64,000 nt of DNA from Mucilaginibacter sp. SMC90 (GTDB taxonomy: Bacteria; Bacteroidota; Bacteroidia; Sphingobacteriales; Sphingobacteriaceae). This document shows, in pieces, positions 25,077 to 45,246 of this stretch. The notes under the pieces were generated by a model. It was given only the letters and a program-made list of their open reading frames with translations, did no database searches and had not been told where the DNA came from. The translations under genes were made by a program, and so were the position numbers. The stretch covers positions 5,766,001-5,830,000 of the forward strand of contig NZ_CP094527.1 in the NCBI RefSeq assembly GCF_022811725.1, in the 5' to 3' direction. How positions within the stretch are numbered: the first letter of the stretch is position 1; each line of letters starts with the position of its first letter.

Positions 25077-25661
25077 ATCGCTAATGCCGGCCTGTTGGCA
25101 GGTTTGGGTTTTAAAAAACTAAACTAAGGAAAGATTTGCGTAGAAGGGCAATTTATATACACTTTAGCAACTAACATGAAAGATAGCCTGCTTAAGGCTC
25201 TTGCTTTAGGGGATTTGCCCCTTTTTCTTCAACTTACAAAACTTTATTAACCCCGCACACAAAACGAGTAACTATAAATTAATTCATTAACTATAAAATA
25301 TACCGCAAGAAAGCGACTATTTTTTCAAACCCATACCTTAACCGGGTTTATAATGGGGCGATGTCACCTATTGTTCAATTATTTTGGCAATCCCCTTTAA
25401 AATGAGCAGTTTTGAGAGTTAAATATTTTTAATCAAACGCAGAAGCCTGTTAAAAACGGTTTGATAAAATTATCGGTGCAACCTTTCCGAACCTGATTCG
25501 GTAGCAATCCCTATGTTACCAGGAATTGGTGGGCCCACCATGATGATATTTCTTTTTAAACGGCTTCTGAGCGAAAATCATCGCGAAAAACCGGATTCGA
25601 TCCATAAATGAATTTAAACCCAAGAAATACCATATCCAAAATGTTTACCCAATACAGTTTG
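25077..25661. other. Divergent intergenic region between membrane AraC gene and RND operon
   Basis: About 580 bp without a convincing gene; this is where both divergent promoters must lie. It holds a 14-bp perfect palindrome at 25527-25540 and a short inverted repeat CCGAA/TTCGG at 25487-25501. The efflux adaptor frame is open from 25608, but I prefer its start at 25662. Confidence 0.5.
25527..25540. promoter_or_regulatory. 14-bp perfect palindrome upstream of RND operon
   Basis: TGGTGGGCCCACCA is fully self-complementary and is GC-rich inside an AT-rich intergenic region, 122 bp before the preferred adaptor start. It is a candidate binding site for a dimeric regulator of the efflux operon or of the divergent AraC operon. 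Confidence 0.45.
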
Positions 25662-26861
25662 ATGAATTTAAAACCCGAATGGTTAATCAACAAAAAATCA
25701 CTGCCAAAAGCAATTTGTATCCTATCATTTTTGGTGATTGCAGCACTTTCATCATGTGGCAACGGGAAAGACAAAAACAGCGACGGGCAAGCCGAACAGG
25801 TGCTTGATTATAAGGTACTTGAGCTTCAGCCAAGGCAGGCCACGTTAAATGTTGATTATCCTGCCAGCTTACAGGGACAGCAAAACATTGAGATCCGCCC
25901 GAAGGTTGACGGCTATGTTGAGAAGATCTATGTAGATGAAGGCGCGTCGGTTACCAAAGGGCAGTTGCTTTTTAAAATAAGCGCTCCGCAATATGAGCAG
26001 GATGTACGTACTGCCCAGGCAGGGATTAAAACCGCTGAGGCCGACCTGGCCCTGGCACGGATGCAGGTTAATAAGGTAAAACCCTTGGTACAGCAGGATA
26101 TCATCAGTAGATACGAGCTGGAAACTGCCGAATACAATGAACAATCAAAAGCCGCAGCTTTAGCCCAGGCAAAAGCCGCACTTGTTAATGCACAGGTTAA
26201 TTTGGGTTATACTACCATTACAAGCCCTGTTAATGGTGTAATAGGCTCATTGCCACATAAATTGGGAAGCCTTGTAAGCGCAAGCAATACCGAACCATTA
26301 ACTACAGTTTACAATACAGCAAACGTATATGCCTATTTTGCCCTGAATGAAAAAGCGTTATTAGCCTTCACCCGCGATAGTTCTGATAAAACATCGCTTA
26401 GCGCCAAAATTGCAAAGTTGCCAAATGTATCATTGATATTGCCGGATAGCAGCATTTACGAACATACCGGCCGGGTTGAAACCATTAATGGCTTGATCAA
26501 TACGGCTACAGGCGCTGCCAACATGCGTGCCGATTTTGTTAATCCGCGCGGCGTGATCAGGAGTGGAAGCAGTGCTACGGTGCGGATACCTAATGTTATT
26601 AAAAATGCTATCCTGGTACCGCAATCTGCCACGTACGAATTGCAGAACAAACGTTTTGTATATGTGGTTGACGCGCAAAAAAAGGTTAAAAACACCGCGA
26701 TAGAGGTTATGAACAATACAGAGGGGCAGTTTTATGTAGCAACCGATGGTATCAAGGCAGGCGATGTGATCATATTGGAAAGCAGCGGCAATTTAAAAGA
26801 TGGCACTGTAATAAAACCGGCTCCCGTTAGCGCGCAAAGCGTTTATGGCGATACAAAATAA
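25662..26861 (+). CDS. RND efflux periplasmic adaptor (AcrA/MexA type)
   Basis: A 399-residue lipoprotein that links the inner-membrane pump to the outer-membrane channel. I choose the ATG at 25662, which gives a standard lipoprotein signal (LVIAALSSC, Cys32); the frame is open to 25608. Motifs are the lipoyl half NIEIRPKVDGYVEKIYVDEG (about 70-95) and its partner TTITSPVNGVIGSLPHKLGS (about 185-205), separated by a helical hairpin (AEADLALARMQVNKVKPLVQ). A beta-barrel follows, then a C-terminal segment with ILVPQSATYELQNKRFVYVV. It is the first gene of the operon, 38 bp before the pump gene. Confidence 0.95.
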   Translation: MNLKPEWLINKKSLPKAICILSFLVIAALSSCGNGKDKNSDGQAEQVLDYKVLELQPRQATLNVDYPASLQGQQNIEIRPKVDGYVEKIYVDEGASVTKGQLLFKISAPQYEQDVRTAQAGIKTAEADLALARMQVNKVKPLVQQDIISRYELETAEYNEQSKAAALAQAKAALVNAQVNLGYTTITSPVNGVIGSLPHKLGSLVSASNTEPLTTVYNTANVYAYFALNEKALLAFTRDSSDKTSLSAKIAKLPNVSLILPDSSIYEHTGRVETINGLINTATGAANMRADFVNPRGVIRSGSSATVRIPNVIKNAILVPQSATYELQNKRFVYVVDAQKKVKNTAIEVMNNTEGQFYVATDGIKAGDVIILESSGNLKDGTVIKPAPVSAQSVYGDTK

Positions 26862-26899
26862 ACTCAAAAAATCTTATCCAAAAAACATAAAGCAATACC

Positions 26900-29800
26900 A
26901 TGCTTAAAAAATTCATTGAGCGTCCTGTACTTTCAACCGTAATATCGGTGATCCTGGTTATACTCGGCGTACTTGGGCTTGCAACATTACCCGTATCACA
27001 ATACCCGGATATTGCGCCGCCTACCGTACAGGTGCAGGCCTTTTACAGCGGTGCCAATGCCGACGTAGTGCTTAAAAGCGTGATCATTCCACTGGAAGAG
27101 CAGATCAACGGCGTAGAGAACATGACCTACATGACCTCATCGGCCAGTAATGACGGTTCAGCATCTATTACCGTATTTTTTAAAGTAGGCACCAACCCCG
27201 ATCTGGCTGCGGTGAACGTGCAAAACCGCGTATCGCGGGCTACCAGCTTACTTCCTTTAGTTGTTACACAATCGGGCGTATCGGTATCAAAAAGTCAGAG
27301 CAGTGAGCTCATCATTTTTTCGTTATACAGCGAAAACAAGATCTATGATGAAACTTTTTTGCAAAACTATACCAAGATCAACCTTGTACCACAGATTCAG
27401 CGCGTAACCGGCGTAGGCCAGGCGCAAGTATTCGGTTCAAAAGATTATTCGATGCGGATTTGGCTTAAGCCGGATGTGATGTCGCGGTATAGTTTGGTAC
27501 CTGATGATATTACGGAGGCACTTAATGAGCAGAACATTGAAGCCGCCCCCGGTAAATTTGGCGAAAACAGCCACGAGCCATTTCAATATGTTTTACGCTA
27601 TAAAGGCCGCCTGCAAACGCCCAAAGAGTTTGGTGATATGATCATCAAATCGGTAGGGAACGGCGAGTTGTTACGCCTGAGCGATGTTGCCCGTGTTGAA
27701 CTTGGCGCACTTGATTATTCGTTTGTTGAGCAAACCAACGGTTTGCCATCAGTAGGTGTGGCCATCAGTCAAACCGCCGGATCAAACGCTCATGATGTGA
27801 TCAACGAGACCAAGAAAATAATTGACCAGGCTTCGCAAAAGTTCCCGGCCGGTGTCAAAATAGCCTACCTTGTTGATGCCAACGAGTTTTTGAACGCCTC
27901 GATAGAAAAAGTTATCAGCACCTTGATTGAGGCTTTTATATTGGTGTTTATTGTAGTGTTTGTTTTTCTGCAGGATTTCAGGTCCACATTGATCCCGGCT
28001 ATCGCCGTACCGGTAGCTATTATAGGTACATTCTTTTTCCTTAACCTGTTTGGGTTTACCATCAACCTGCTTACGCTATTTGCATTGGTACTGGCTATTG
28101 GTATCGTAGTAGATGATGCCATTGTGGTTGTTGAGGCCGTGCACGCCAAACTTGATCAAGGCTATAAATCGGCGCGGAAAGCCTCTGTTGATGCGATGAA
28201 CGAGATCTCCGGAGCCATCATTTCCATCACCCTTGTAATGTCAGCTGTGTTTTTGCCGGTTACATTCATATCAGGCTCTACCGGGGTATTTTATAAGCAA
28301 TTTGGTATAACGCTTGCCGTGGCCATTATCTTATCTGCAGTAAATGCCTTAACGTTAAGTCCGGCCCTGTGCGCACTGTTTCTGAAACCGCATGAAAAAG
28401 GCCAGCCCAAGCACGGTTTTATTAACAGGTTTTATGTTGCGTTCAATACCTCGTTCGATGTGGTAAGCGGTAAATATCAAAAATCGGTAAGCTTTTTGGC
28501 ACGCCGCAAATGGATCGTTATCGCCACTGTTGTGGTGTTTGCCGCCTTATTTGCGTTTTTGGTAAAAACTACCCCTTCCAGCTTTGTGCCTAATGAAGAC
28601 CAGGGGACGATATTTGCCGCCATTAGCCTTCCGCCGGCATCGTCAATGGAGCGCACCGAAGCCGTCGCGACTAAAATAGACAGCATCGGCCGTACCTTCC
28701 CCGAAGTAGAAAACTCGCTTAAACTGGTAGGATTTAACTTTTTGGCAGGATCGGGCAGCGCATACGCTATGGTGATCCTGAAACTTAAAGATTGGGACCA
28801 CCGCAAGCAAAAAAACCAAAGCCTTGAAAGTATCATCGGGCAGCTTTTTGCTAAAACCAGCGGACTGCGCGAGGCGAGCGTATTTTATTTTTCGCCTCCT
28901 ACCCTACAGGGTTTTGGTAACAGCGATGGCTTTGAGTTTCAGTTACAGGATAAAGGCGGCCATACCATTAATGAAATTTTTAAAGTAAGCAACGATTTTC
29001 AGGCCGCGTTGCGCAAACGTAAAGAGATCCAAAACCTGAACTCATCGTTTAACCCTAACTTTCCGCAATACCAGGTTGATGTAAACGTGGCCAAATGTAA
29101 AGAAGCCGGTGTTAGCGTGAACTCCGTACTGGGTACCCTGCAAGGCTATTACGGAGGTTTGTACGCGTCAAACTTTAACCAGTTTGGCAAGCAATACCGC
29201 GTTATGGTTCAGGCCGATTATGATTACCGCACCAACCAAACCGGGCTCAGCAAAATATTTGTGCGCAACAAAGCCGGGGAAATGGCACCTATTACCTCTT
29301 TTGTTACTTTACGCAGGGTGTTTGGGCCGGAGTCTATTTCGCGCTTTAACCTGTTTACCGCCATATCGGTGTCAGGATCTCCTAACCCTGGCTACAGCAC
29401 CGGCGACGCCATTAAAGCCATCCAGGAAACGGCAGTTCAAAACCTGCCTGCCGGTTACGACTATGAGTTTTCGGGCCTTACCCGCGAAGAATTAAGTACA
29501 GGCACACAATCGGCATATATATTCATCCTTTGCCTGGTGTTCGTTTACTTTTTACTGAGCGCCCAGTACGAAAGCTATATCCTTCCCTTTGCGGTGTTAT
29601 TATCGCTGCCGGTTGGTTTGGCAGGCACTTATATATTTGCAAGGATCTTTGGCATTGGCAGCAATATCTATTTACAGATCTCGCTTATCATGCTCATCGG
29701 TTTATTGGCCAAAAACGCCATCCTGATCGTAGAGTTTGCGCTCGACAGGCGAAGGGCTGGTATGGAAATTATCCCCGCAGCCATTGCCGGAGCCGAAGCG

Positions 29801-30061
29801 CGTTTACGCCCTATCCTCATGACCTCCTTTGCCTTCATTTTTGGTATCATGCCTTTGATGTTTTCGACCGGGGCAGGTGCTAACGGTAACCGTTCCATTG
29901 GCGCTGGTGCTGTAGGCGGTATGTTTGTGGGCACCGTGTTCGGCGTGTTTGTGATACCGGTGTTGTTCATTATATTTCAGTTATTGCAGGAACGTGTAAG
30001 TCCGCTCAACAAGCGTTACGATGAAGACGATGACACGCCCGAAACTACGCCTGCACCCTAA
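26900..30061 (+). CDS. RND multidrug efflux pump (AcrB/MexB type, HAE1)
   Basis: A 1053-residue inner-membrane proton/drug antiporter. It starts with the typical MLKKFIERPVLSTVISVILV helix and has 12 predicted membrane helices and two large periplasmic loops (about 40-335 and 565-870). The proton-relay acidic pair is in TM4 (GIVVDDAIVVVEAVHAKL) and the relay Lys in TM10 (LIGLLAKNAILIVEFALDRR). The FxGxG-like segment FVYFLLSAQYESYILPFAVL and the RPILMTSFAFIFGIMPLM stretch are standard for the HAE1 group, so lipophilic drugs, dyes, bile-like compounds or plant aromatics are likely substrates. It ends 13 bp before the channel gene. Confidence 0.97.
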   Translation: MLKKFIERPVLSTVISVILVILGVLGLATLPVSQYPDIAPPTVQVQAFYSGANADVVLKSVIIPLEEQINGVENMTYMTSSASNDGSASITVFFKVGTNPDLAAVNVQNRVSRATSLLPLVVTQSGVSVSKSQSSELIIFSLYSENKIYDETFLQNYTKINLVPQIQRVTGVGQAQVFGSKDYSMRIWLKPDVMSRYSLVPDDITEALNEQNIEAAPGKFGENSHEPFQYVLRYKGRLQTPKEFGDMIIKSVGNGELLRLSDVARVELGALDYSFVEQTNGLPSVGVAISQTAGSNAHDVINETKKIIDQASQKFPAGVKIAYLVDANEFLNASIEKVISTLIEAFILVFIVVFVFLQDFRSTLIPAIAVPVAIIGTFFFLNLFGFTINLLTLFALVLAIGIVVDDAIVVVEAVHAKLDQGYKSARKASVDAMNEISGAIISITLVMSAVFLPVTFISGSTGVFYKQFGITLAVAIILSAVNALTLSPALCALFLKPHEKGQPKHGFINRFYVAFNTSFDVVSGKYQKSVSFLARRKWIVIATVVVFAALFAFLVKTTPSSFVPNEDQGTIFAAISLPPASSMERTEAVATKIDSIGRTFPEVENSLKLVGFNFLAGSGSAYAMVILKLKDWDHRKQKNQSLESIIGQLFAKTSGLREASVFYFSPPTLQGFGNSDGFEFQLQDKGGHTINEIFKVSNDFQAALRKRKEIQNLNSSFNPNFPQYQVDVNVAKCKEAGVSVNSVLGTLQGYYGGLYASNFNQFGKQYRVMVQADYDYRTNQTGLSKIFVRNKAGEMAPITSFVTLRRVFGPESISRFNLFTAISVSGSPNPGYSTGDAIKAIQETAVQNLPAGYDYEFSGLTREELSTGTQSAYIFILCLVFVYFLLSAQYESYILPFAVLLSLPVGLAGTYIFARIFGIGSNIYLQISLIMLIGLLAKNAILIVEFALDRRRAGMEIIPAAIAGAEARLRPILMTSFAFIFGIMPLMFSTGAGANGNRSIGAGAVGGMFVGTVFGVFVIPVLFIIFQLLQERVSPLNKRYDEDDDTPETTPAP

Positions 30062-30074
30062 TTTACCTCTTACA

Positions 30075-31481
30075 ATGAATAAAAAAGTCATAAGATATAC
30101 CTGTTTGCCCGCCATATTGCTGTTTGCGTTATCGTCATGCCTGGTCAATAAAAAATACCGGCAGCCCGGCGTCAACACCAATAATTTATATCGCGACGTT
30201 ACTACAAACGATAGCGCTACGATGGCGGTGATGCCCTGGCAAACACTTTTTACCGATACTACTTTAAAAGCATTGATACAGGAGGGCTTAAATAATAACC
30301 TCGACCTGAAAAATGCCATCCAACGTATTGCCGAAGCACAGGCCACCCTGCTGCAAAGCAAAGGTGCGTTACTGCCCAACGTAAGCGCAAATGCTTCGGT
30401 AACCCGTTCCAAGCAATCAACCGCTGGGCTTAACTTCCCTACCGGCATCGGGTTTAATACACTAACTACCACTTACCAAGCTGGCTTAACCACCTCATGG
30501 GAGGCAGACATCTGGGGTAAACTAACCAGCGCAAAACGGGCGGCCTTTGCAGGCTACCTGCAAACCGATGCTGCTAAACGTGCTGTACAAACCCAGCTCA
30601 TAGCCGATATTGCCAATAATTACTTCCTACTACTGTCGCTTGATCAGCAACTGGAAATAACCAAAGAAACATTGGCAAACCGTATAAAAGATGTGGAGAC
30701 CATGAAAAAGCTGAAAGAAGGCGCGGTGGTTACCGGTGCGGCTGTGGTGCAAAGCGAAGCCAACCGGTACGCAGCCGAGGTATCCATCCCTGATCTGAAA
30801 CGCAGTATCCGCGAAACGGAGAACGCTTTGGATATTTTACTTGCCCGTGCGCCGGGGCCTGTAAACCGTACCAATCTTTCGGGCCAAAATATAACAGCAC
30901 CATTGCAAACGGGCGTACCCTCACAACTGCTTGCCAACCGCCCGGATGTACAGCAAGGCGAATACGCTTTCAGGCTCGCATTTGAAAACACCAATGTGGC
31001 CCGGGGCTATTTTTATCCCCAGTTCACGATTACCGCTTCGGGTGGTTTTTCAAGCTTGCAGCTGAAGGACTTTTTTGATCATTCGGTATTTTACAATATT
31101 GTTGGTGGTTTAACTCAGCCCATATTTAACCAGGGCATTAACAAGGCGCGCCTGCGTACTGCACAGGCACAGCAACAAGAAGCGCTAAACAGTTTCCAGA
31201 AAACATTGCTGGTGGCAGGCCAGGAAGTATCCGATGCGCTTTATGCCCATCAAACCGCCGTTGAAAAGCAGGATGCGAGAGCAAAACAAATTGCTGCCCT
31301 ACAAAAATCAGTTACGTATACGCAGCAGTTATTGCGCTTTAGTTCAGCTACAAATTACACCGATGTGCTTACTTCCGAACAAAATCTTTTATCAGCCCAA
31401 TTAAGCGGAGTGAATGATAAGTTACAGGAATTACAGGCAATAGTTAACCTTTACCGGGCATTGGGCGGGGGCTGGCGATAG
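30075..31481 (+). CDS. Outer-membrane efflux channel lipoprotein (TolC/NodT type)
   Basis: A 468-residue outer-membrane factor that completes the tripartite pump. The ATG at 30075 gives a proper lipoprotein signal (LPAILLFALSSC, Cys22); the frame is open back to 30021, inside the pump gene. Two OEP repeats are visible. The first contains IQEGLNNNLDLKNAIQRIAE and TSWEADIWGKLTSAKRAA; the second contains NRPDVQQGEYAFRLAFENTN and TQPIFNQGINKARLRTAQAQ. The LLANRPDVxxxE and SWExDxWGK motifs are diagnostic of the NodT group. No terminator is obvious after the stop. Confidence 0.96.
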   Translation: MNKKVIRYTCLPAILLFALSSCLVNKKYRQPGVNTNNLYRDVTTNDSATMAVMPWQTLFTDTTLKALIQEGLNNNLDLKNAIQRIAEAQATLLQSKGALLPNVSANASVTRSKQSTAGLNFPTGIGFNTLTTTYQAGLTTSWEADIWGKLTSAKRAAFAGYLQTDAAKRAVQTQLIADIANNYFLLLSLDQQLEITKETLANRIKDVETMKKLKEGAVVTGAAVVQSEANRYAAEVSIPDLKRSIRETENALDILLARAPGPVNRTNLSGQNITAPLQTGVPSQLLANRPDVQQGEYAFRLAFENTNVARGYFYPQFTITASGGFSSLQLKDFFDHSVFYNIVGGLTQPIFNQGINKARLRTAQAQQQEALNSFQKTLLVAGQEVSDALYAHQTAVEKQDARAKQIAALQKSVTYTQQLLRFSSATNYTDVLTSEQNLLSAQLSGVNDKLQELQAIVNLYRALGGGWR

Positions 31482-36705: not shown

Positions 36706-37293
36706 TCAGGCATATTGTAATAATGGGTGCCGGCTACCTGCGTTTTGGCTGGTGCCCATATGTGAAAATGCCACTTTATAAAAACTGCCTATTATATAAT
36801 CGGCCAGCCTGATAGTATTGTTCCCTTCACCAAAATTGGTATCCGGATCACAAGAACTATTTGGATAGATCCTGAACCTGTCCGCAACCAGATCTGCCGG
36901 ATCAAAATAGAAATGTAAATTCAAACCACAGTCACCGATATTCAAAGCCGGCCCCAATTGCGATACGTTTGGCTCAATCACGGTCAATTGCGCTCCCAGT
37001 GAGCCCATAACGTATTGAAGCTGATCAAGCTGCAGAAGATATTGCAGGCCATAAGTAAGCCGCGCGTTGCCGTAAAAGCTAACAGCCAGCGAACTTCCCG
37101 ACATCTTTCTGATCAGCATTGAGGTTGGAGCATATAACGCCGATGGAACAAACCGCTTAAGATACCTTTCATTTTCAACACGGCTTTCACCAACCACTCT
37201 CAGGGCTGCCTGCCTCCGTGCGGGTGTTTCAAGTTCGGCAATGATCTCGATCTTATCAAATCCAGGATATTTTTTGACAGGGTTGCACAACAT
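36706..37293 (-). CDS. Protein of unknown function, no signal peptide
   Basis: A 195-residue protein without signal or membrane segment. The N-terminus (KIEIIAELETPARRQAALRV) is helical; the middle is mixed (RLTYGLQYLLQLDQLQYVMG, then TVIEPNVSQLGPALNIGDCG), and there is a beta-rich C-terminal half with FYFDPADLVADRFRIYPN and a Cys-containing turn (SSCDPDTNFGEG). I do not recognise the family. It lies directly downstream of a 44-bp perfect palindrome and of the PUL B transcript, so it may be co-regulated with that locus. Confidence 0.6.
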   Translation of the reverse strand: MLCNPVKKYPGFDKIEIIAELETPARRQAALRVVGESRVENERYLKRFVPSALYAPTSMLIRKMSGSSLAVSFYGNARLTYGLQYLLQLDQLQYVMGSLGAQLTVIEPNVSQLGPALNIGDCGLNLHFYFDPADLVADRFRIYPNSSCDPDTNFGEGNNTIRLADYIIGSFYKVAFSHMGTSQNAGSRHPLLQYA

Positions 37294-37342
37294 AGTTTAT
37301 TTGAATTGCTTTATTTAAACTCAAACTATTTGCAGCTAATAT

Positions 37343-37386
37343 AACAAATACACTATAAAATCTATAGATTTTATAGTGTATTTGTT
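37343..37386. promoter_or_regulatory. 44-bp perfect palindrome without spacer
   Basis: Two 22-base arms, fully self-complementary with the centre between 37364 and 37365. The left arm begins AACAAATACACTATAAAATC and the right arm mirrors it through GATTTTATAGTGTATTTGTT. It lies 49 bp upstream of the start at 37293 and 71 bp beyond the stop at 37458, both genes on the minus strand. It could be an operator for a dimeric or tetrameric regulator, a cruciform or an AT-rich hairpin terminator. Confidence 0.75.
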
Positions 37387-37457
37387 TAAGCCAAATTTTA
37401 CCTGGTGCTAAACCTGTTTCAATCAAGCTTTCAGGCTGGTTTCGCCTACTAAAATCT

Positions 37458-37997
37458 TTAAGATTTACCGTACCCGATATGTGCCAGTTGCTTTCCCATT
37501 TCCATGTAAGCTTCGTTTTCGGCCGGTGCCCAGGTGCCCAATCCGTCTACATAACGGTTGTACATGCAAAACGCCGCAGCTATTAAAACGGTATCGTGGA
37601 TCTCCTTATCGGTTGCCCCAAGGTCGCGGGCGGCTTTAATATCTGTTTCCTTTACGTTTTTGCCGCTGCCCTGTACTTGGTGTGCAATATTTAATAACGC
37701 TCTTAGCTTGTCTGAAACATCGGTATTGGGTAAACCGGCTTTGATCTCATCAATCAATCCTACACCTGCATTCAAATGCGCCGCGGCTGCCGCAGCATGG
37801 GATGTATGGCAAAAGTGGCATTGGTTACGGTACGATACCGATGCCGCTATGATCTCACGCTCCCCGCTGGTAAGAGTTGATGGCCCGCGTAGCAACGTTT
37901 CTGCAAGTAAAAGTAAAGGCTGCGCAGTTGCAGGGCTGTAATTCAATAAACCCACAATGCCCGGTAATTCTTCGTTGAGTAATTTAATATGTGCCAT
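37458..37997 (-). CDS. Carboxymuconolactone decarboxylase/AhpD-like protein 1
   Basis: A 179-residue cytoplasmic all-helical protein of the CMD/AhpD superfamily. The redox motif is Cys60-x-x-Cys63 in QCHFCHTSH with His67; an acidic relay residue lies upstream in SGEREII. This arrangement is that of AhpD-type disulfide reductases and of uncharacterised peroxidase-related proteins, not of true decarboxylases. It shares long blocks with the protein at 43894 (SDKLxALL, HDTVLIAAAFCM, NRYVDGL). It is the last gene of the SusCD/esterase operon, starting 83 bp after the esterase stop. Role in that operon is unknown; redox protection or conversion of an imported aromatic is possible. Confidence 0.88.
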   Translation of the reverse strand: MAHIKLLNEELPGIVGLLNYSPATAQPLLLLAETLLRGPSTLTSGEREIIAASVSYRNQCHFCHTSHAAAAAAHLNAGVGLIDEIKAGLPNTDVSDKLRALLNIAHQVQGSGKNVKETDIKAARDLGATDKEIHDTVLIAAAFCMYNRYVDGLGTWAPAENEAYMEMGKQLAHIGYGKS

Positions 37998-38080
37998 AAA
38001 TACTTATTTAAAGTGATTTTTGTTCATAAATCCGGAAAGTAAAATACAAACCGGATTTTATGTTTTTAGTACCGATAATG

Positions 38081-39547
38081 TTATTTTTTTAAGTTAAGTT
38101 CCTGGTATTTCTGCTGAAGAAATCGGTATCCGCTTGTCCTATATTCCGGAGTAGATACGGTAAAGTGGTCGCCGGGATAATAGGCAAACTCAAAACCAGC
38201 ATCCTTCGTTTTCATTTCTTTTTCCAGCAATACAACTGCATAATTCAATAAAAAATTATCCTGATTGCCTACCGACACCCTGATCTTACCCTGCAGGTCA
38301 TTTTTCAGTTGCTGCCAGTTTGTTTTCAGGTATAATGAGATATCATATTTTTTCCATTGCGCTACCGTGCCTGAATCAATTGAACCGCTGGCCTCATCGC
38401 AAAGTTCCCGGGGCTGTCCATCTGCTTTTTTTGCACTAAATACATAATTGAAGGAATGCATTTGCCCCCCGCGGTAAAGTACATGTTCCATGTTGTACAT
38501 GGTCTTCATCATGATCCAGGGGAAGCGACCCGCAATAGTGCCTGCTACCCGCAGTGAACTATCCTTTGCATAAAACATATTATTGTCCTTATACAGATCA
38601 ATCTCCTGAAAACTCCTGAAATCTACCGGATCGGGTGAACTCGACCAGCAAGCCGTAAATACTTTTGGGTAGTGTGTTTGCAGCCATAGTACTGTCCACC
38701 CGCCGCTGCTGTGCCCTGTAAGTAACCGGGCGGCATTGGTCCTGTAATTTTTTTCAACAAGGGGGATGAGCTCCGTTGTCAAAGCATCGCCCCAGGGGCC
38801 ATTATTTTCACTGTTAGCGTAAACGCTATGGCCCCCCGGGCAACGGCCATCTAAATAAACCCTGATACAAGCGGTAGTATCTATTGGCAAACCTGGATCA
38901 TTTTTGCCCGAGTAAGCGTGATAATCGCCCCCAAATCCAGATACCCAGTATAGCACCGGAAATTTCCTTAAAGGCTGATCATAATACTCTTTGGGTAGTA
39001 TAACAGCAGCATTTACCGTAGCCGGTCTTTTATAGAAGGCAGTAAGCAACGCAGACGGAGCCTTCAATTCTTTAACAAATTGCGTTTCCGTAAAACTTTG
39101 CTCCCCTATCACCTTGGCGCAAACAACGTTAAATGTTTGCCGTGTATCTTTGCCGAACTTTACTACCATAGGGCCGTTGTACATATTACCCGGGCTATCG
39201 CCAATAGAGGCTCCTCCCCCATTTCTGTCCCAAACTACCTGTACATGGTAAGAGCCTCTTTCTATTTCCGACAGTGCAACCGGGTAAAAAACGGCCGCAT
39301 CGTTAAATACTACTTTCTGGCCCGGCTTTACATCTTTTACCGAAATAAAAAAACAAGGAAACTTTTCCATTCCTATCATCCCGTCTTTAGGGCTGACAGC
39401 ATCTTTAGAAAGATATAAAAACACCCTGCCTGTAAAACTTCCGGCAGATGCATTTGCAGTATAGCTGGCAGTTATTTGCTGACTTATGGCCTGCAACGAG
39501 CAGGCACATAAGCAACAAAGGACCATTATTTTATGAAACATTTTCAT
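38081..39547 (-). CDS. Exported esterase, alpha/beta-hydrolase fold (PF00756-like)
   Basis: A 488-residue exported protein (signal peptide ends near LQAISQ). I take the ATG at 39547, 11 bp after the SusD stop. An N-terminal beta-domain of about 170 residues (SYTANASAGSFTGRVFLYLS, YHVQVVWDRNGGGASIGDSP) precedes an esterase domain. That domain has FPVLYWVSGFGGDYHAY, the nucleophile Ser in LLTGHSSGGWTVLW (near 278) and a likely catalytic His in YYPGDHFTV near the end. The two-part layout resembles Fes/IroE-type and feruloyl/acetyl esterases. It is the only enzyme with a clear hydrolytic role in PUL B. Confidence 0.88.
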   Translation of the reverse strand: MKMFHKIMVLCCLCACSLQAISQQITASYTANASAGSFTGRVFLYLSKDAVSPKDGMIGMEKFPCFFISVKDVKPGQKVVFNDAAVFYPVALSEIERGSYHVQVVWDRNGGGASIGDSPGNMYNGPMVVKFGKDTRQTFNVVCAKVIGEQSFTETQFVKELKAPSALLTAFYKRPATVNAAVILPKEYYDQPLRKFPVLYWVSGFGGDYHAYSGKNDPGLPIDTTACIRVYLDGRCPGGHSVYANSENNGPWGDALTTELIPLVEKNYRTNAARLLTGHSSGGWTVLWLQTHYPKVFTACWSSSPDPVDFRSFQEIDLYKDNNMFYAKDSSLRVAGTIAGRFPWIMMKTMYNMEHVLYRGGQMHSFNYVFSAKKADGQPRELCDEASGSIDSGTVAQWKKYDISLYLKTNWQQLKNDLQGKIRVSVGNQDNFLLNYAVVLLEKEMKTKDAGFEFAYYPGDHFTVSTPEYRTSGYRFLQQKYQELNLKK

Positions 39548-39558
39548 CCTGGTAAGTT

Positions 39559-40860
39559 TTATTGTTCGGTTACAGGTAATGGAAATTCGGGCCACACATC
39601 ATCTCCCGGCCTATCTATCGGTAAAGTGTTCAACAAGCTATACCGGCGAAGATCGACCCAGCGGTGCCCCTCAAAAAACAACGAATAACGGCGCTGGTTA
39701 AGCATTTCTGTTATCAAGGCCGACTTAGTGACAGCACCCGCATAGACCCCAAGCCCATGTCCCTGCCTGATGATATTAATTGCTTTTACCCCCTCTGTAA
39801 AATTATCTGATTGAATATTTGCCTCGGCATAAATCAATATCAGCTCTTCATTACGAATAATTGCTATTGGCGCAGTACTTGAGGTATACACCCAAACATC
39901 ACGGTTACCGGTGAGTCCGCTTAGCGACGCCGGATTAGCACGGAGCGCAGTTTTATTGATCCTGTCATCACCTGTGGCAATATTTGCTGCATAAGTTGGA
40001 TGCGCAACCCTGACTTCGCCGGTTTGATTTTGAGGGATAAATACCGGGTTGAGCTGATCGCCAAGGCCTGTACCGAATATATGGTAAACGCCCGTATTAA
40101 AATCATTGCTTAATTTCAGGAATGACCCGTTCAGATCAGTGAGCGCAGTTTGCCAGTTGCCCTGGTAAACGCTAACCCTTGCAGCAAGCGCCCTGTTAAA
40201 TTTAACTAAACCGGCGGCATCACTCAAAGTACCAAAACCAGCCAGCTGAAAGGAGATAGTAGCCCCGGTCAGATCTGTTTTTGCTGAATCCAGTAAAGAT
40301 GTAATAGCTTTTAACCCATCAGCATAACCTACAAAAGGGCCAAGCTTAGCCGGATTTGCAACATCCACCCTTATCCCGTGCGAATAAGTGAGGTTAAGGT
40401 TAAGCAAAAGCTGGTAAGCCTTTATAGTACGTGCAAAACCTATATAACCTTTCTTTTGCTCATTGCTGATATGGGTAGAATTGTTTGCCGCTTCGGCAAG
40501 TATATTACAGTTTTTCACAACCCGGTACTTAGCCGCCCAGGGGATAGTAATATAAAAATTGCTTCCGCTAAGGGTTGCATCATTGGCGCCAAGCAAATCA
40601 AGAACGTACCGCGGTTCCGAAACAGATAAACGGTAAATCTCCCGACCGATAACGCTTACATCATCGAGGTAAAAATTAAGCGAGGTCCTCATACCCGATT
40701 CTGTACCGCTAACCAGGTTATTAAGTTCACTTTGGGTGGCATTTCGTGTCAGGTCTTCAACCGTAGCATTGTTGAGGTTGCCGTAATCTTTTTTGCATGC
40801 CGTAAACAGGAGGCCGAATGCAAGGGCCAGTGTGCCGTATAATTTGATATGTTGTTGCAT
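39559..40860 (-). CDS. SusD-like lipoprotein (PUL B)
   Basis: A 433-residue surface lipoprotein; the lipobox is LLFTAC (Cys22). It is shorter than usual SusD proteins but has the family parts: NLNNATVEDLTRNATQSE near the N-terminus, AGFARTIKAYQLLL-like helix as GFARTIKAYQLLLNLNLTYS, IRNEELILIYAEANIQSDNF, and RRYSLFFEGHRWVDLRRYSL. It ends FPLPVTEQ instead of the common QNPGY. Together with the SusC 18 bp upstream it should capture the PUL B ligand. The ligand is likely small, given the absence of any glycoside hydrolase nearby. Confidence 0.93.
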   Translation of the reverse strand: MQQHIKLYGTLALAFGLLFTACKKDYGNLNNATVEDLTRNATQSELNNLVSGTESGMRTSLNFYLDDVSVIGREIYRLSVSEPRYVLDLLGANDATLSGSNFYITIPWAAKYRVVKNCNILAEAANNSTHISNEQKKGYIGFARTIKAYQLLLNLNLTYSHGIRVDVANPAKLGPFVGYADGLKAITSLLDSAKTDLTGATISFQLAGFGTLSDAAGLVKFNRALAARVSVYQGNWQTALTDLNGSFLKLSNDFNTGVYHIFGTGLGDQLNPVFIPQNQTGEVRVAHPTYAANIATGDDRINKTALRANPASLSGLTGNRDVWVYTSSTAPIAIIRNEELILIYAEANIQSDNFTEGVKAINIIRQGHGLGVYAGAVTKSALITEMLNQRRYSLFFEGHRWVDLRRYSLLNTLPIDRPGDDVWPEFPLPVTEQ

Positions 40861-40878
40861 AATGATTCCTTTTTTAAA

Positions 40879-43815
40879 TTAAAAATTGAATGAAACGTGA
40901 AGCGCCGCGCGTTTGCTTGATGGATAAGGATCTATATCCACGCCCGATGAAAAACCTGTGCCAAAATTTGATACCTCTGGATCATATCCTTTGTATTTGG
41001 TGATAGTGAAGTAATTATTCAATGATGCACCAACATTGATGGATTTTACAAAAGTTCCGGGAAGTTTATTGAACGTATAATATAGCCCGATTTCGCGGAA
41101 ACGCAGATATGTTGATGTTTCTACCGTTTGATGTGCATCAGACCCGATCTTCATCAACTGTGAAACCCCATATGGCACATGAGGAATGCTGCTCGGGTTA
41201 TCATAAGTAGCACTGGTACCTCCAAATACGTTCTGAAGGCTGGTAACATTCACGTTTTGACCTCCTTTTTTCCAATGGATCAAAAAGCGAAGGCTCAATT
41301 TATTAAAAAAGGTAACTTCGTTATAGGTATTCATCTGAAATGTAGGCTCGGTGTCGCCTAACACGCCTATCCCCTTCCCGTTGAGGCCAACAATCTGTGT
41401 TGCTGACTTACCCTGTTCTATCTGGAATGTACCTAACAGTACACCACCGGTTGAACCTAATTGTACCGGCGGTACAGTTAGCTTAGTAATCTTAGAACGG
41501 TTAAACCAAAAGTTTACCGAAGTATTCCAAACTACATCTTTTAAAGCAACAGGTTTGGCATTTAGCCCAAGCTCGATACCGTGATTGGTCAGGTTACCGG
41601 CATTTGTCCATTGTTGCGCATAGCCTGACGATGCCGGCGGGGTAGTCAGCAGCAGGAAATCCCTGATATTTTTATGATAATAGGTCAGTTCAAAGCCTAA
41701 GCGTCCTTTTAATAAACTGAAATCAATACCTGTTTCAAGCTCGGTTTGCCTTTCAGGCTTAATTGCCGGGTCGCCTTCCTGTGTATTAACCAACAAACCC
41801 GGATAGCCACCAATATTTGATACGCCCATCGAAGTAAATTTACTACCATAGGCCGGAACGTTATTAGCCTGGCCGTAAGCTGCACGCAGTTTGATATTAT
41901 CAAAAAGCCCCTGTTTGATAACGCCCAGATCAGTAAGGTTTACAGATAAGCCTGCTTTAGGATAAAAATAATATTTGGCTACATTGCCGTTATTGCTTGA
42001 CCTATCCAGCCGCAAACCTCCGGTTAAGGTGATAGCATTAGCTATTAATGCTTCTTCTTGTAAAAAAAAGCCCTGGTTAAGGTATTTGGTGCGCAGTTGC
42101 GTGGCATTTAAAGCGCCTGCCTGGTCAACGTTTGACTGGCCTGCTATAACCTGCGTAGCTACATTAAGCAGGTTATTATAATCGCCTGTTTCGCGCGTTA
42201 AGCCGCCTGAAGTAGTAAGCGATAAATTTGACGATGCCGTAAATGTGTTTACCAGCGAAAGTATAAAGTTGGTACTTAAGTTTTTTGTGGAGCCTTGTAC
42301 AGACATCCCTTTATTGATGGCTTCAAACTGTAAAATGCTCGGGAATAACGCGCTGGTTTGCAGGTTGTAAAAATCAATACCACCCCTGCCTATAAATTTG
42401 GTTACGCTGCTGTTGCTCTTTTGAAGCATAACATCCAGGTTGGCACCGGTGATGAACCTGTTCACCGATTCGTTATTCTGCATCAGCGCAATGGTTTGCA
42501 GCGGGTTGGATGCCGCAAAAGGATTGGCAGGATAATTTCCGTCTTTATCCGGGTGCAACTGGGCAAATCCCGGCGTTGAGGAAAGCGCAATCCCCGTGGT
42601 TACCCCTGCATTATCGTTACCAAACAATCCCCTGTCGGCAGATGAATTGATATAATTGGTGCTGATCCCTAATTTAATATTGTCTGAAACTTTGTGATCC
42701 AAATTCAACCTAACGCTGGTGTTTTTATAACCGGTGCGCTGAACCAGCCCGTTTTCATCTTTTTGGGCCACCGAAAAGTAAAACCCGGTTTTCTCGTTTC
42801 CACCGTTCATGGTTAGCACGGTATTTCTCAGGAATGGCGTATGATCATAAATTTCTTTTTCATAATCATAAATATGCCCTGCTGATTGCGCTGCCAGAAA
42901 CTGGTTGGTTAGCGTAGCTGAGTCGCCGGGTAAGGTAGCGGCAGTTTGTGCTGTAAACTTTCTAACACCTAATAATTTTATCGGCCTTAAAAATCCCACA
43001 TCCTGCGATAATGAAATATTTGTTTTGCCCTGCTTTCCCCTTTTGGTGTTGATGATCACTACCCCACCCGATGCTTTTGAACCGTAGATTGCAGCGGCGG
43101 AAGCGCCTTTCAATATCTCGATGCTTTCGATATCCTCTGCTCTCAGGTCGGCAATCCTGCTTGAGGGATTGTCCTGGTTGGATGTTGCACCGGTAGTGCC
43201 TGCAGATGTAACCGCATTTAAACCACCAGAAGTGGCCGTGTTATCCACAAAAACGCCATCTACAACATATAAAGGCTGTGTGTTGCCAAACACCGAAGTT
43301 ACGCCACGCAGCTTTACCGAGATACCGCCACCCGGGGCACCCGAGTTAGCATTAATATAAGCGCCGGGAATTTTTCCCTCCAAAGCGGCGTCAAAAGTTT
43401 GTGCGGGTGCTGTACCGTTTAATGTTTTAGCATTGATCACCGCCACCGCATTGGCCAGGTTTTTTCTTTTAACAGTAGTAGCCAAACCGGTAACAACCAC
43501 CTCGTCGAGGTTGGCAACGTCTCCGGCCAGTTTTACCTGGATGGTTGATAACCGCGATACGTCGATGGTTTGCGCCTTGTAACCTATGGCACTTACCGTT
43601 ATTATCGCATTGTTTGGAATGCTAATCGTGAATTTGCCGTTTGCATCAGATACTGTAACCAATGCATTATTTTTCAGGGCTATTGTTGCTCCCTGCACCG
43701 GGCCGTTTTTTTCGGTAACTACAGTTCCCGTTAATGTTTTAGTTTGTGCAAAAAGCAGCACAGGCATGGCTAATAAAAAAAACATGCCTGCAATAAATAG
43801 TAATTTTTGTCTCAT
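40879..43815 (-). CDS. SusC-like TonB-dependent transporter (PUL B)
   Basis: A 978-residue transporter from the ATG at 43815 (MRQKLLFIAGMFFLLAM, signal peptide ending LLFAQ). The frame is open eight codons further. It has a CarboxypepD_reg domain (EKNGPVQGATIALKNN), a plug with DEVVVTGLATTVKRKNLANA, PLYVVDGVFVDN and ILKGASAAAIYGSKASGGVV, and a barrel ending AALHVSFNF. No STN domain. It is followed by SusD and the esterase, and preceded by CMD-like protein 2 on the same strand. Confidence 0.95.
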   Translation of the reverse strand: MRQKLLFIAGMFFLLAMPVLLFAQTKTLTGTVVTEKNGPVQGATIALKNNALVTVSDANGKFTISIPNNAIITVSAIGYKAQTIDVSRLSTIQVKLAGDVANLDEVVVTGLATTVKRKNLANAVAVINAKTLNGTAPAQTFDAALEGKIPGAYINANSGAPGGGISVKLRGVTSVFGNTQPLYVVDGVFVDNTATSGGLNAVTSAGTTGATSNQDNPSSRIADLRAEDIESIEILKGASAAAIYGSKASGGVVIINTKRGKQGKTNISLSQDVGFLRPIKLLGVRKFTAQTAATLPGDSATLTNQFLAAQSAGHIYDYEKEIYDHTPFLRNTVLTMNGGNEKTGFYFSVAQKDENGLVQRTGYKNTSVRLNLDHKVSDNIKLGISTNYINSSADRGLFGNDNAGVTTGIALSSTPGFAQLHPDKDGNYPANPFAASNPLQTIALMQNNESVNRFITGANLDVMLQKSNSSVTKFIGRGGIDFYNLQTSALFPSILQFEAINKGMSVQGSTKNLSTNFILSLVNTFTASSNLSLTTSGGLTRETGDYNNLLNVATQVIAGQSNVDQAGALNATQLRTKYLNQGFFLQEEALIANAITLTGGLRLDRSSNNGNVAKYYFYPKAGLSVNLTDLGVIKQGLFDNIKLRAAYGQANNVPAYGSKFTSMGVSNIGGYPGLLVNTQEGDPAIKPERQTELETGIDFSLLKGRLGFELTYYHKNIRDFLLLTTPPASSGYAQQWTNAGNLTNHGIELGLNAKPVALKDVVWNTSVNFWFNRSKITKLTVPPVQLGSTGGVLLGTFQIEQGKSATQIVGLNGKGIGVLGDTEPTFQMNTYNEVTFFNKLSLRFLIHWKKGGQNVNVTSLQNVFGGTSATYDNPSSIPHVPYGVSQLMKIGSDAHQTVETSTYLRFREIGLYYTFNKLPGTFVKSINVGASLNNYFTITKYKGYDPEVSNFGTGFSSGVDIDPYPSSKRAALHVSFNF

Positions 43816-43893
43816 TGTTTTGGGTTTGGTTTGATACATCAGGATTTTAAATAAAAGGCGTTTACCAAGCTGTTCATATATTTTAAAACCAGC

Positions 43894-44445
43894 TTATTTT
43901 ACAACGGGAACAAGGCCTCCGTAACCACCTTCAACAACTTGTTTCGCCCTTGGCGGGTATGATGCCAGGTCTGTTGGGGTGTTTGTAGCAAGCCCGTCAA
44001 CATAGCGGTTAAACATGCAGAATGCCGCTGCTATAAGTACAGTGTCATGCACATCATTATCGGTTGCTCCTGCCGCCTTTGCTATTGCTATTTGATTGTC
44101 CGTTACAGATTTTCCGCCTTTTTGAACACTTGCGGCTACCGATAATAATGCTTTTAGCTTGTCAGAAATCCCGGCGTTTGCATAATCTCTGATCACATGG
44201 TTAACGAGATCATAATTTTCATCAAGATAGCAGGCTGCTATAGCACCATGCGAGTGCTGGCAATAAAAACAATTATTTAAATAGGAAACGTAGGTTCCAA
44301 TCAATTCCCTTTCGGCCATAGTTAGCCCATTGTTTGAACGTAAAAGGGTATTGGCCAATTGACCCAGCGGACCGGCAATATCTGGCCTGTATGCCAGCAG
44401 CGAACGCATGCCCGGCAAATTTTGATCTAAGCTTATGTGCGGCAT
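43894..44445 (-). CDS. Carboxymuconolactone decarboxylase/AhpD-like protein 2
   Basis: A 183-residue helical protein, paralogue of the one at 37458. The redox motif is Cys59-x-x-Cys62 in NCFYCQHSH with His66, after MAERELIGTYVSYLNN. The C-terminal block HDTVLIAAAFCMFNRYVDGL is almost identical in the two proteins. Here it is the first gene of the PUL B transcript, 78 bp ahead of the SusC start. Having two such proteins, one at each end of a SusCD/esterase operon, is unusual and suggests they are an integral part of its pathway. Confidence 0.88.
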   Translation of the reverse strand: MPHISLDQNLPGMRSLLAYRPDIAGPLGQLANTLLRSNNGLTMAERELIGTYVSYLNNCFYCQHSHGAIAACYLDENYDLVNHVIRDYANAGISDKLKALLSVAASVQKGGKSVTDNQIAIAKAAGATDNDVHDTVLIAAAFCMFNRYVDGLATNTPTDLASYPPRAKQVVEGGYGGLVPVVK

Positions 44446-44697: not shown

Positions 44698-45246
44698 TTA
44701 AGAAAGAGATTTGGGTGGCTGCTCGGGGATTTCCAGCTTATGGCAGTTAAAACTGATCACAGGCTGTACCAGCCTTATGGCTAACATTTTAAATGGAGAA
44801 GTAAATTCAAATATTCCAAACACGAAGTGTACTCCGTCAACTACCTGTGCCTTGCCATAGGGCACATGTTCTTTTGCCGGAATCTTTAAATCACCTATAT
44901 CTTCAGCGTGAATGATATTTTGGGATGACAGGCGGGTTGTTTTGTAATTTGGGACACACATGAGGTAAATTGCATTCCGGGTAACCCGCATTTTCACGTA
45001 ATTATAAGCAGCATTGGCAAACTGAACCTGCCCGCTCACCTTCTGGTAATCAGACCATTCTGAAGCTATGGATATATTTACGGGGATCTTTACCTCAACC
45101 AGCTCATCTGTTTTGTAAAGGCCTTTACCAGTTTGTGCTGTAAAAAACTGATCTGCCTTATAATTCAAATAATTATAAACAATAAGCTGCCCTACCAAAC
45201 TGAACAGGTAAATATGAAGTACTAATATAACGGCAACCTTTTTCAA
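44698..45246 (-). CDS. Membrane-anchored exported protein of unknown function
   Basis: A 182-residue protein with one N-terminal hydrophobic helix (VAVILVLHIYLFSLVGQLIV), probably an uncleaved anchor or signal. The following periplasmic part has DELVEVKIPVNISIASEWSD, then NAAYNYVKMRVTRNAIYLMC, PNYKTTRLSSQNII, and a final segment with VHFVFGIFEFTSPFKMLAIR. Proteins of this pattern are known to me from Bacteroidota genomes near TonB-dependent metal receptors, but the name and role are not established. It stands alone here, with a 635-bp gap on one side. Confidence 0.75.
   Translation of the reverse strand: MKKVAVILVLHIYLFSLVGQLIVYNYLNYKADQFFTAQTGKGLYKTDELVEVKIPVNISIASEWSDYQKVSGQVQFANAAYNYVKMRVTRNAIYLMCVPNYKTTRLSSQNIIHAEDIGDLKIPAKEHVPYGKAQVVDGVHFVFGIFEFTSPFKMLAIRLVQPVISFNCHKLEIPEQPPKSLS

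Follow-up and report, generated by a model that had tools for sequence, protein, structure and literature searches.

Sus-type polysaccharide utilisation loci (PULs) combine a SusC/SusD pair with a secreted esterase, as does the locus analysed here, but the cassettes to which this locus belongs have no glycosidase or lyase and carry two to five AhpD-like CMD proteins, together with orfU, an MFS carrier, a DUF3179 protein and a MetE-like enzyme. For the CMDs, a described counterpart is the AhpD-like RclX of Pseudomonas aeruginosa, which like them has four of the five residues used in catalysis by M. tuberculosis AhpD and whose loss by mutation makes cells sensitive to HOCl and HOSCN; its gene forms a single-gene operon next to rclR and, unlike the CMD genes, comes without a transporter, SusCD or esterase (PMC7950407). 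The AhpD/TIGR01926 peroxidase-related proteins of solved structure (2prr, 3c1l and 6k40) share the family and the residue set E-x11-C-x2-C-x3-H with the CMDs, but not their fixed multi-paralogue arrays with transporters, and the closest of them, 2prr (E 1e-14), has W, M, N and T where the CMDs have H133, Y148, D150 and G151. The MFS carrier of the second cassette in this genome resembles organic-anion carriers, its best profiles being AAHS and MhpT, with SLC22 also matching. It reaches 146 bits against the aromatic-acid carrier profile, so far under the cut-off of 418 that the match fixes neither direction nor substrate, and inspection of its first helix by eye showed no DGxD motif. No description of the whole arrangement was found in the open papers, which agrees with an earlier reading made from the letters alone (the sequence-only reading), and the cassette seems to be new as a fixed combination of parts that, orfU excepted, belong to known families.

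The window, the whole stretch of 64,000 nucleotides that was analysed, covers positions 5,766,001–5,830,000 of an 8.13 Mb genome in one contig, from a soil-dwelling bacterium that is in all likelihood a Mucilaginibacter. ORFs and family scans place a CMD, SusC, SusD, an esterase and another CMD in that order on the minus strand at 44445–37458, which bears out the five-gene order proposed earlier with matches to PF02627 (both CMDs), TIGR04056, PF07980 and PF00756. The features are as follows.

44698..45246, minus strand: orfU, 182 aa, no Pfam or NCBIfam match, homologues beside CMD cassettes in many genomes
43894..44445, minus strand: CMD_E, 183 aa, AhpD-like, with E47, C59, C62 and H66; PF02627; clade E (100/99)
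40879..43839, minus strand: SusC-like TonB-dependent transporter, 986 aa; TIGR04056; plug, barrel and CarbopepD_reg_2 domains
39559..40860, minus strand: SusD-like lipoprotein, 433 aa, LFTAC lipobox; PF07980 at 54 bits
about 38081..39547, minus strand: secreted esterase, N-terminal beta domain and CE1-type alpha/beta-hydrolase domain; PF00756
37458..37997, minus strand: CMD_A, 179 aa, AhpD-like, active-site residues as in CMD_E; PF02627
37343..37386, no strand: perfect palindrome of 44 bp, two 22-nt arms without spacer

The gaps of 78, 18, 11 and 83 bp given earlier are exact when the second ATG (M9) is taken as the start of SusC and MKMF as that of the esterase. The earlier list held these five genes but overlooked orfU upstream, and its range of 36706-44445 extended too far at the lower end. 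There the ORF at 36706–37293 lies beyond the palindrome and has neither a family match nor relatives at other cassette loci, so we rejected it as an operon member and set the limit of the locus at 37458. The palindrome stands 3' of CMD_A, the last CMD; a repeat search found its arms 100% complementary, and its RNA fold has a z-score of -5.7, with none of 200 shuffles equally stable. It is likely to mark the operon end as a bidirectional hairpin and may act as a terminator or regulator site. The Bacteroidota promoter consensus TTTG-N17–23-TANNTTTG had five matches in the window, a count expected by chance, and none in the locus, and the sigma-70 and terminator scans also gave results at chance level. 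An RND efflux system (membrane fusion protein, RND pump and TolC-like protein) lies about 6 kb from the locus, at 25608-31481 of the window; RND genes also occur near the CMD cassettes of L045 and L050 and, by eye, of L044.

The linkage of the CMDs to SusCD recurs across genomes and so withstands the check on conservation that the sequence-only reading had set for itself. The SusC protein scores 498 bits against TIGR04056 (cut-off 368), and among its orthologues at 64% identity or more whose loci were read, a CMD_E-type gene stands directly upstream on the same strand in 10 of 10, mostly at a spacing of 35–57 nt. The 10 loci are those of the window, G059, G040, G012, G051, Hufsiella arboris, the MAG SZAS-82, G171, G624 and G964; G059, G040, G012, G051 and G624 were found through their CMDs and are therefore not independent. 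When 301 genomes of the family were searched blind with SusD, four orthologues (at least 74% identity) came up, all four in CMD cassettes. More distant SusD relatives behave differently: none of the eight read among nine family members at 40–57% identity had a CMD neighbour, nor did any of 15 class-level genes read at 34–52%, one of which had been counted before. CMD pairing as a general trait of the SusCD family was accordingly rejected on some 20 SusCD pairs (SusD at 34–57%) without a CMD neighbour, among them L169 on an incomplete contig. Since the orthologues have the CMD and the distant pairs do not, the link is real and limited to one SusCD clade, and we are highly confident that these loci are conserved as a single functional unit.

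That the genes form a unit had also been proposed from the sequence, but too narrowly, as the locus in the window is a cut-down version of a larger cassette found across the phylum. The much longer loci of G059, G040 and G964 read orfU–CMD_E–SusC–SusD–(DUF3179)–esterase–MetE-like–CMD_D–MFS–CMD_B–CMD_C–(UnbV and PAP2)–CMD_A, and the window copy is without the MetE-like gene, CMD_D, the MFS carrier, CMD_B and CMD_C. In relatives, all five CMD clades thus occur together in one operon with the carrier, and the variable partners are a DUF3179 membrane protein, which carries YCTxCRxGR, a vanadium haloperoxidase homologue and the MetE-like enzyme. The last keeps an HxC...E...C pattern, which we take to be that expected of MetE zinc ligands; a weak search of the window's own genome, run without a positive control, found no MetE-like gene elsewhere.

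A second cassette was seen directly in the same genome, 3.6 Mb away (L039), in the order orfU–CMD_D–TonB receptor (922 aa)–MFS–CMD_C–CMD_B. Here a TonB receptor without SusD replaces the SusCD–esterase module while the CMDs and the carrier are kept. The same form, with small variations, occurs in 10 further genomes of the genus and in four from outside it, belonging to other genera or families (L131, L133, L135 and L138). A Spirosoma oryzicola plasmid carries it too, as judged from annotation and homology; L136, L139 and L140, which come from other classes, have the carrier and CMD arrays with a different TonB receptor, and L141 is cut. A blind search with the carrier in 295 genomes of the class gave five homologues, each within a CMD cassette. 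Such CMDs were present in 28 of 61 genomes of one genus sample, and the trait is therefore patchy.

The CMDs bracket SusCD as described earlier, and they are paralogous, with identity at 86 of 184 aligned columns and the shared block HDTVLIAAAFCM-x-NRYVDGL confirmed in both, but they are not a simple pair. A maximum-likelihood tree, proposed in the sequence-only reading and built from 123 CMDs, has five clades, and CMD_E and CMD_A are two members of this five-clade family, placed in clade E (100/99) and in clade A, which spans several families of the phylum. As the clades are separate, the two paralogues are old and did not arise by duplication at this locus; a recent tandem duplication was rejected, each clade extending across many genomes. 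The AhpD-type assignment also held: E47, C62 and H66 are found in 123 of 123 CMDs, C59 in 120 and the full set E-x11-C-x2-C-x3-H in 120, and H133, D134, N146, Y148, D150 and G151 are invariant. The fifth AhpD residue, the His before the second Cys that we take to be numbered H132, is not there, residue 61 being F in 98 and Y in 25 of the 123 sequences. Against TIGR01926 (cut-off 81.8), CMD_E scores 88.5 bits and CMD_A 81.7, falling 0.1 short; against the AhpD core domain TIGR00778 the window CMDs reach 20.3 and 22.9 bits, under the cut-off of 27.8. TIGR01926 AhpD-like proteins (CxxU) and DUF3179 proteins (UxxC/T) both include selenoproteins elsewhere (PMC13188914, PMC9312934), which lends independent support to redox cysteines. 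A candidate selenocysteine in a CMD of G272 was rejected, as the gene reads through without an internal stop.

The subfamily extends beyond the cassette. Proteins related at 50–58% identity are encoded in Streptomyces and Nonomuraea, where the loci read showed no cassette, and CMD_A alone is found beside aminotransferase-like or other unrelated genes, so that the CMDs have uses outside it. In six genomes of another class (L124-L129), a lone CMD_A adjoins aminotransferase-like genes, by eye of the ornithine/lysine type, and at L143:8199-8738 one lies between two short genes that by eye resemble nuoJ and nuoK of respiratory complex I. A plasmid of Streptomyces zaomyceticus (L208:1465-12546) has three CMD genes of the subfamily in an apparent biosynthetic cluster with a 2OG oxygenase, a cupin, metK, a cysteine synthase family gene and asnB.

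The esterase matches PF00756 with 66.5 bits (cut-off 22) and has the motifs GHSSGG, invariant in the three closest orthologues, and GDHF. Its AF2 model (pLDDT 83) joins a beta domain to a CE1-like domain on its C-terminal side. The nearest solved folds, those of the soil esterase 8z91 and of ferulic acid esterases from Bacteroides, share about 14–20% identity with it, a likeness that does not fix the substrate. The feruloyl ester suggested earlier had this distant CE1-type match as its sole basis and is neither supported nor excluded by the evidence. The esterase and SusCD are separable, as relatives of the esterase (56–62%) occur alone in G156 and G132 and L134 has CMD_E–SusC–SusD without it. 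The conserved upstream neighbour of the cassettes in many genomes, orfU, is modelled by AF2 with block means above 70 for residues 1-100 and as disordered after 104, a confidence too low for fold comparison; the model suggests a long N-terminal helix, likely a membrane anchor, then a beta meander, and the protein has a C-terminal PP.

Together, the inner- and outer-membrane transporters of the full cassette, the secreted esterase and the dithiol enzymes suggest that a small compound is imported and processed reductively, and the variable partners DUF3179 and MetE-like, as thiol or redox enzymes, count in the same direction. Our preferred but tentative reading (probability roughly 0.42) is that the cassette is an import-and-reduction operon for a small organic compound that undergoes thiol-dependent reduction in the cytosol. 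SusC and SusD would carry the compound or a conjugate of it across the outer membrane, with transport presumably inward, and the secreted esterase would cleave an ester of it. The product may then enter the cytosol through the MFS carrier in the fuller cassettes and, in the window genome, possibly through that of the second cassette, a cooperation that we infer for two non-adjacent loci. The CMDs, on which no signal peptide was seen and which are thus predicted to be cytosolic, would act on the product, or on oxidative damage arising from it, by dithiol/disulfide exchange at CxxC, the paralogues being specialised or hetero-oligomeric forms of one type of reductase. Their chemistry is probably reductive, and the substrate is most likely a small esterified, oxidised or electrophilic compound.

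The main rival, since P. aeruginosa depends on the AhpD-like RclX to survive HOCl and HOSCN, is a defence against oxidants or electrophiles in which the CMDs act as RclX does and are co-regulated with envelope transporters, without an imported substrate. The CMDs keep E, C, C and H as RclX does, with F or Y before the second Cys, and RND efflux genes lie near several loci. Vanadium haloperoxidase or PAP2 relatives occur at four related loci, G059 and three others, and would fit such a defence, but they are found in a minority of loci only. In G059 the PAP2 protein is clearly homologous (E 8e-119) to the vanadium-dependent haloperoxidase 4cit, presumably the Zobellia iodoperoxidase. Next to the cassettes, however, no RclR-like regulator gene was seen, the upstream neighbour being orfU, and a stress enzyme leaves the strict pairing with SusC/SusD, esterase and MFS unexplained, so we consider this defence a serious but rather unlikely account.

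Also unlikely is a small PUL of the ordinary kind that serves an acylated oligosaccharide, with the esterase removing the acyl groups, SusCD importing, glycosidases acting from other loci and the CMDs as accessory stress proteins. It would account for the SusCD pair, for the distant PDB relatives of SusD that include putative sugar-binding SusD proteins, and for a CE1-type fold like that of Bacteroides ferulic acid and acetyl xylan esterases. Yet no glycoside hydrolase, as the sequence-only reading had remarked, and no polysaccharide lyase is found inside the operon or among the recurrent cassette genes, and a glycosidase or lyase is absent from the cassette at all 10 orthologous loci; the second cassette, moreover, swaps SusCD–esterase for a SusD-free TonB receptor and still keeps the CMDs and MFS. 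The haloperoxidase homologues also raise an improbable variant of import and reduction, a phylum-wide system linking halogen oxidation to intracellular thiol chemistry: the secreted haloperoxidase-like enzyme of some loci and the TonB/SusCD importers would handle halogenated or hypohalite-derived organics, which the AhpD-like dithiol arrays and the MetE-like thiol enzyme might reduce or dehalogenate in the cytosol.

Uptake of a siderophore or other metal chelate, with the metal freed by esterase and reductase, would follow the known logic of TonB receptor, esterase, reductase and MFS, and siderophore and heme receptor profiles match the second-cassette TonB receptors below cut-off. The SusD-type partner speaks against it, as does the failure to recognise a periplasmic ferric reductase or an ABC importer; the match of the esterase to IroE is very weak (E 0.005), leaving the enterobactin-like substrate proposed earlier without specific support and its catechol reading neither supported nor excluded, and a CMD gene of Bacteroides thetaiotaomicron appears in an iron stimulon table as a single line only. 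We regard metal uptake as quite improbable. Aromatic catabolism with the CMDs as decarboxylases of the beta-ketoadipate type, suggested by their Pfam family name, by the likeness of the MFS to aromatic acid symporters and by an esterase fold near ferulic acid esterases, is very improbable, since the CMDs retain the dithiol site of AhpD and their match is to TIGR01926, for CMD_A just short of the cut-off, rather than to a PcaC model, the MFS is under its family cut-off, and sequence inspection with partial profile scans turned up no other beta-ketoadipate gene in the loci read.

If the import-and-reduction reading is true, TonB-dependent and SusCD uptake in Bacteroidota would also serve small reactive compounds overlooked by PUL annotation, and a widespread AhpD subfamily that has no assigned function and is akin to known selenoprotein families would gain a physiological context. 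As the cassette is compact and conserved, the substrate can be sought in one culturable strain. Several further genes accompany the cassettes. UnbV/ASPIC FG-GAP proteins of about 747 aa lie beside CMD_A, CMD_B or orfU in L055, L061, L062, L064 and L068, often with a small LTXXQ-like protein. Two loci, L086:4971-11395 and L051:2806-9695, share a block 3' of the cassette with DoxX-like and RidA-like proteins, a D-serine dehydratase/alanine racemase-type enzyme, an M19 dipeptidase and a GH63-type glucosidase.
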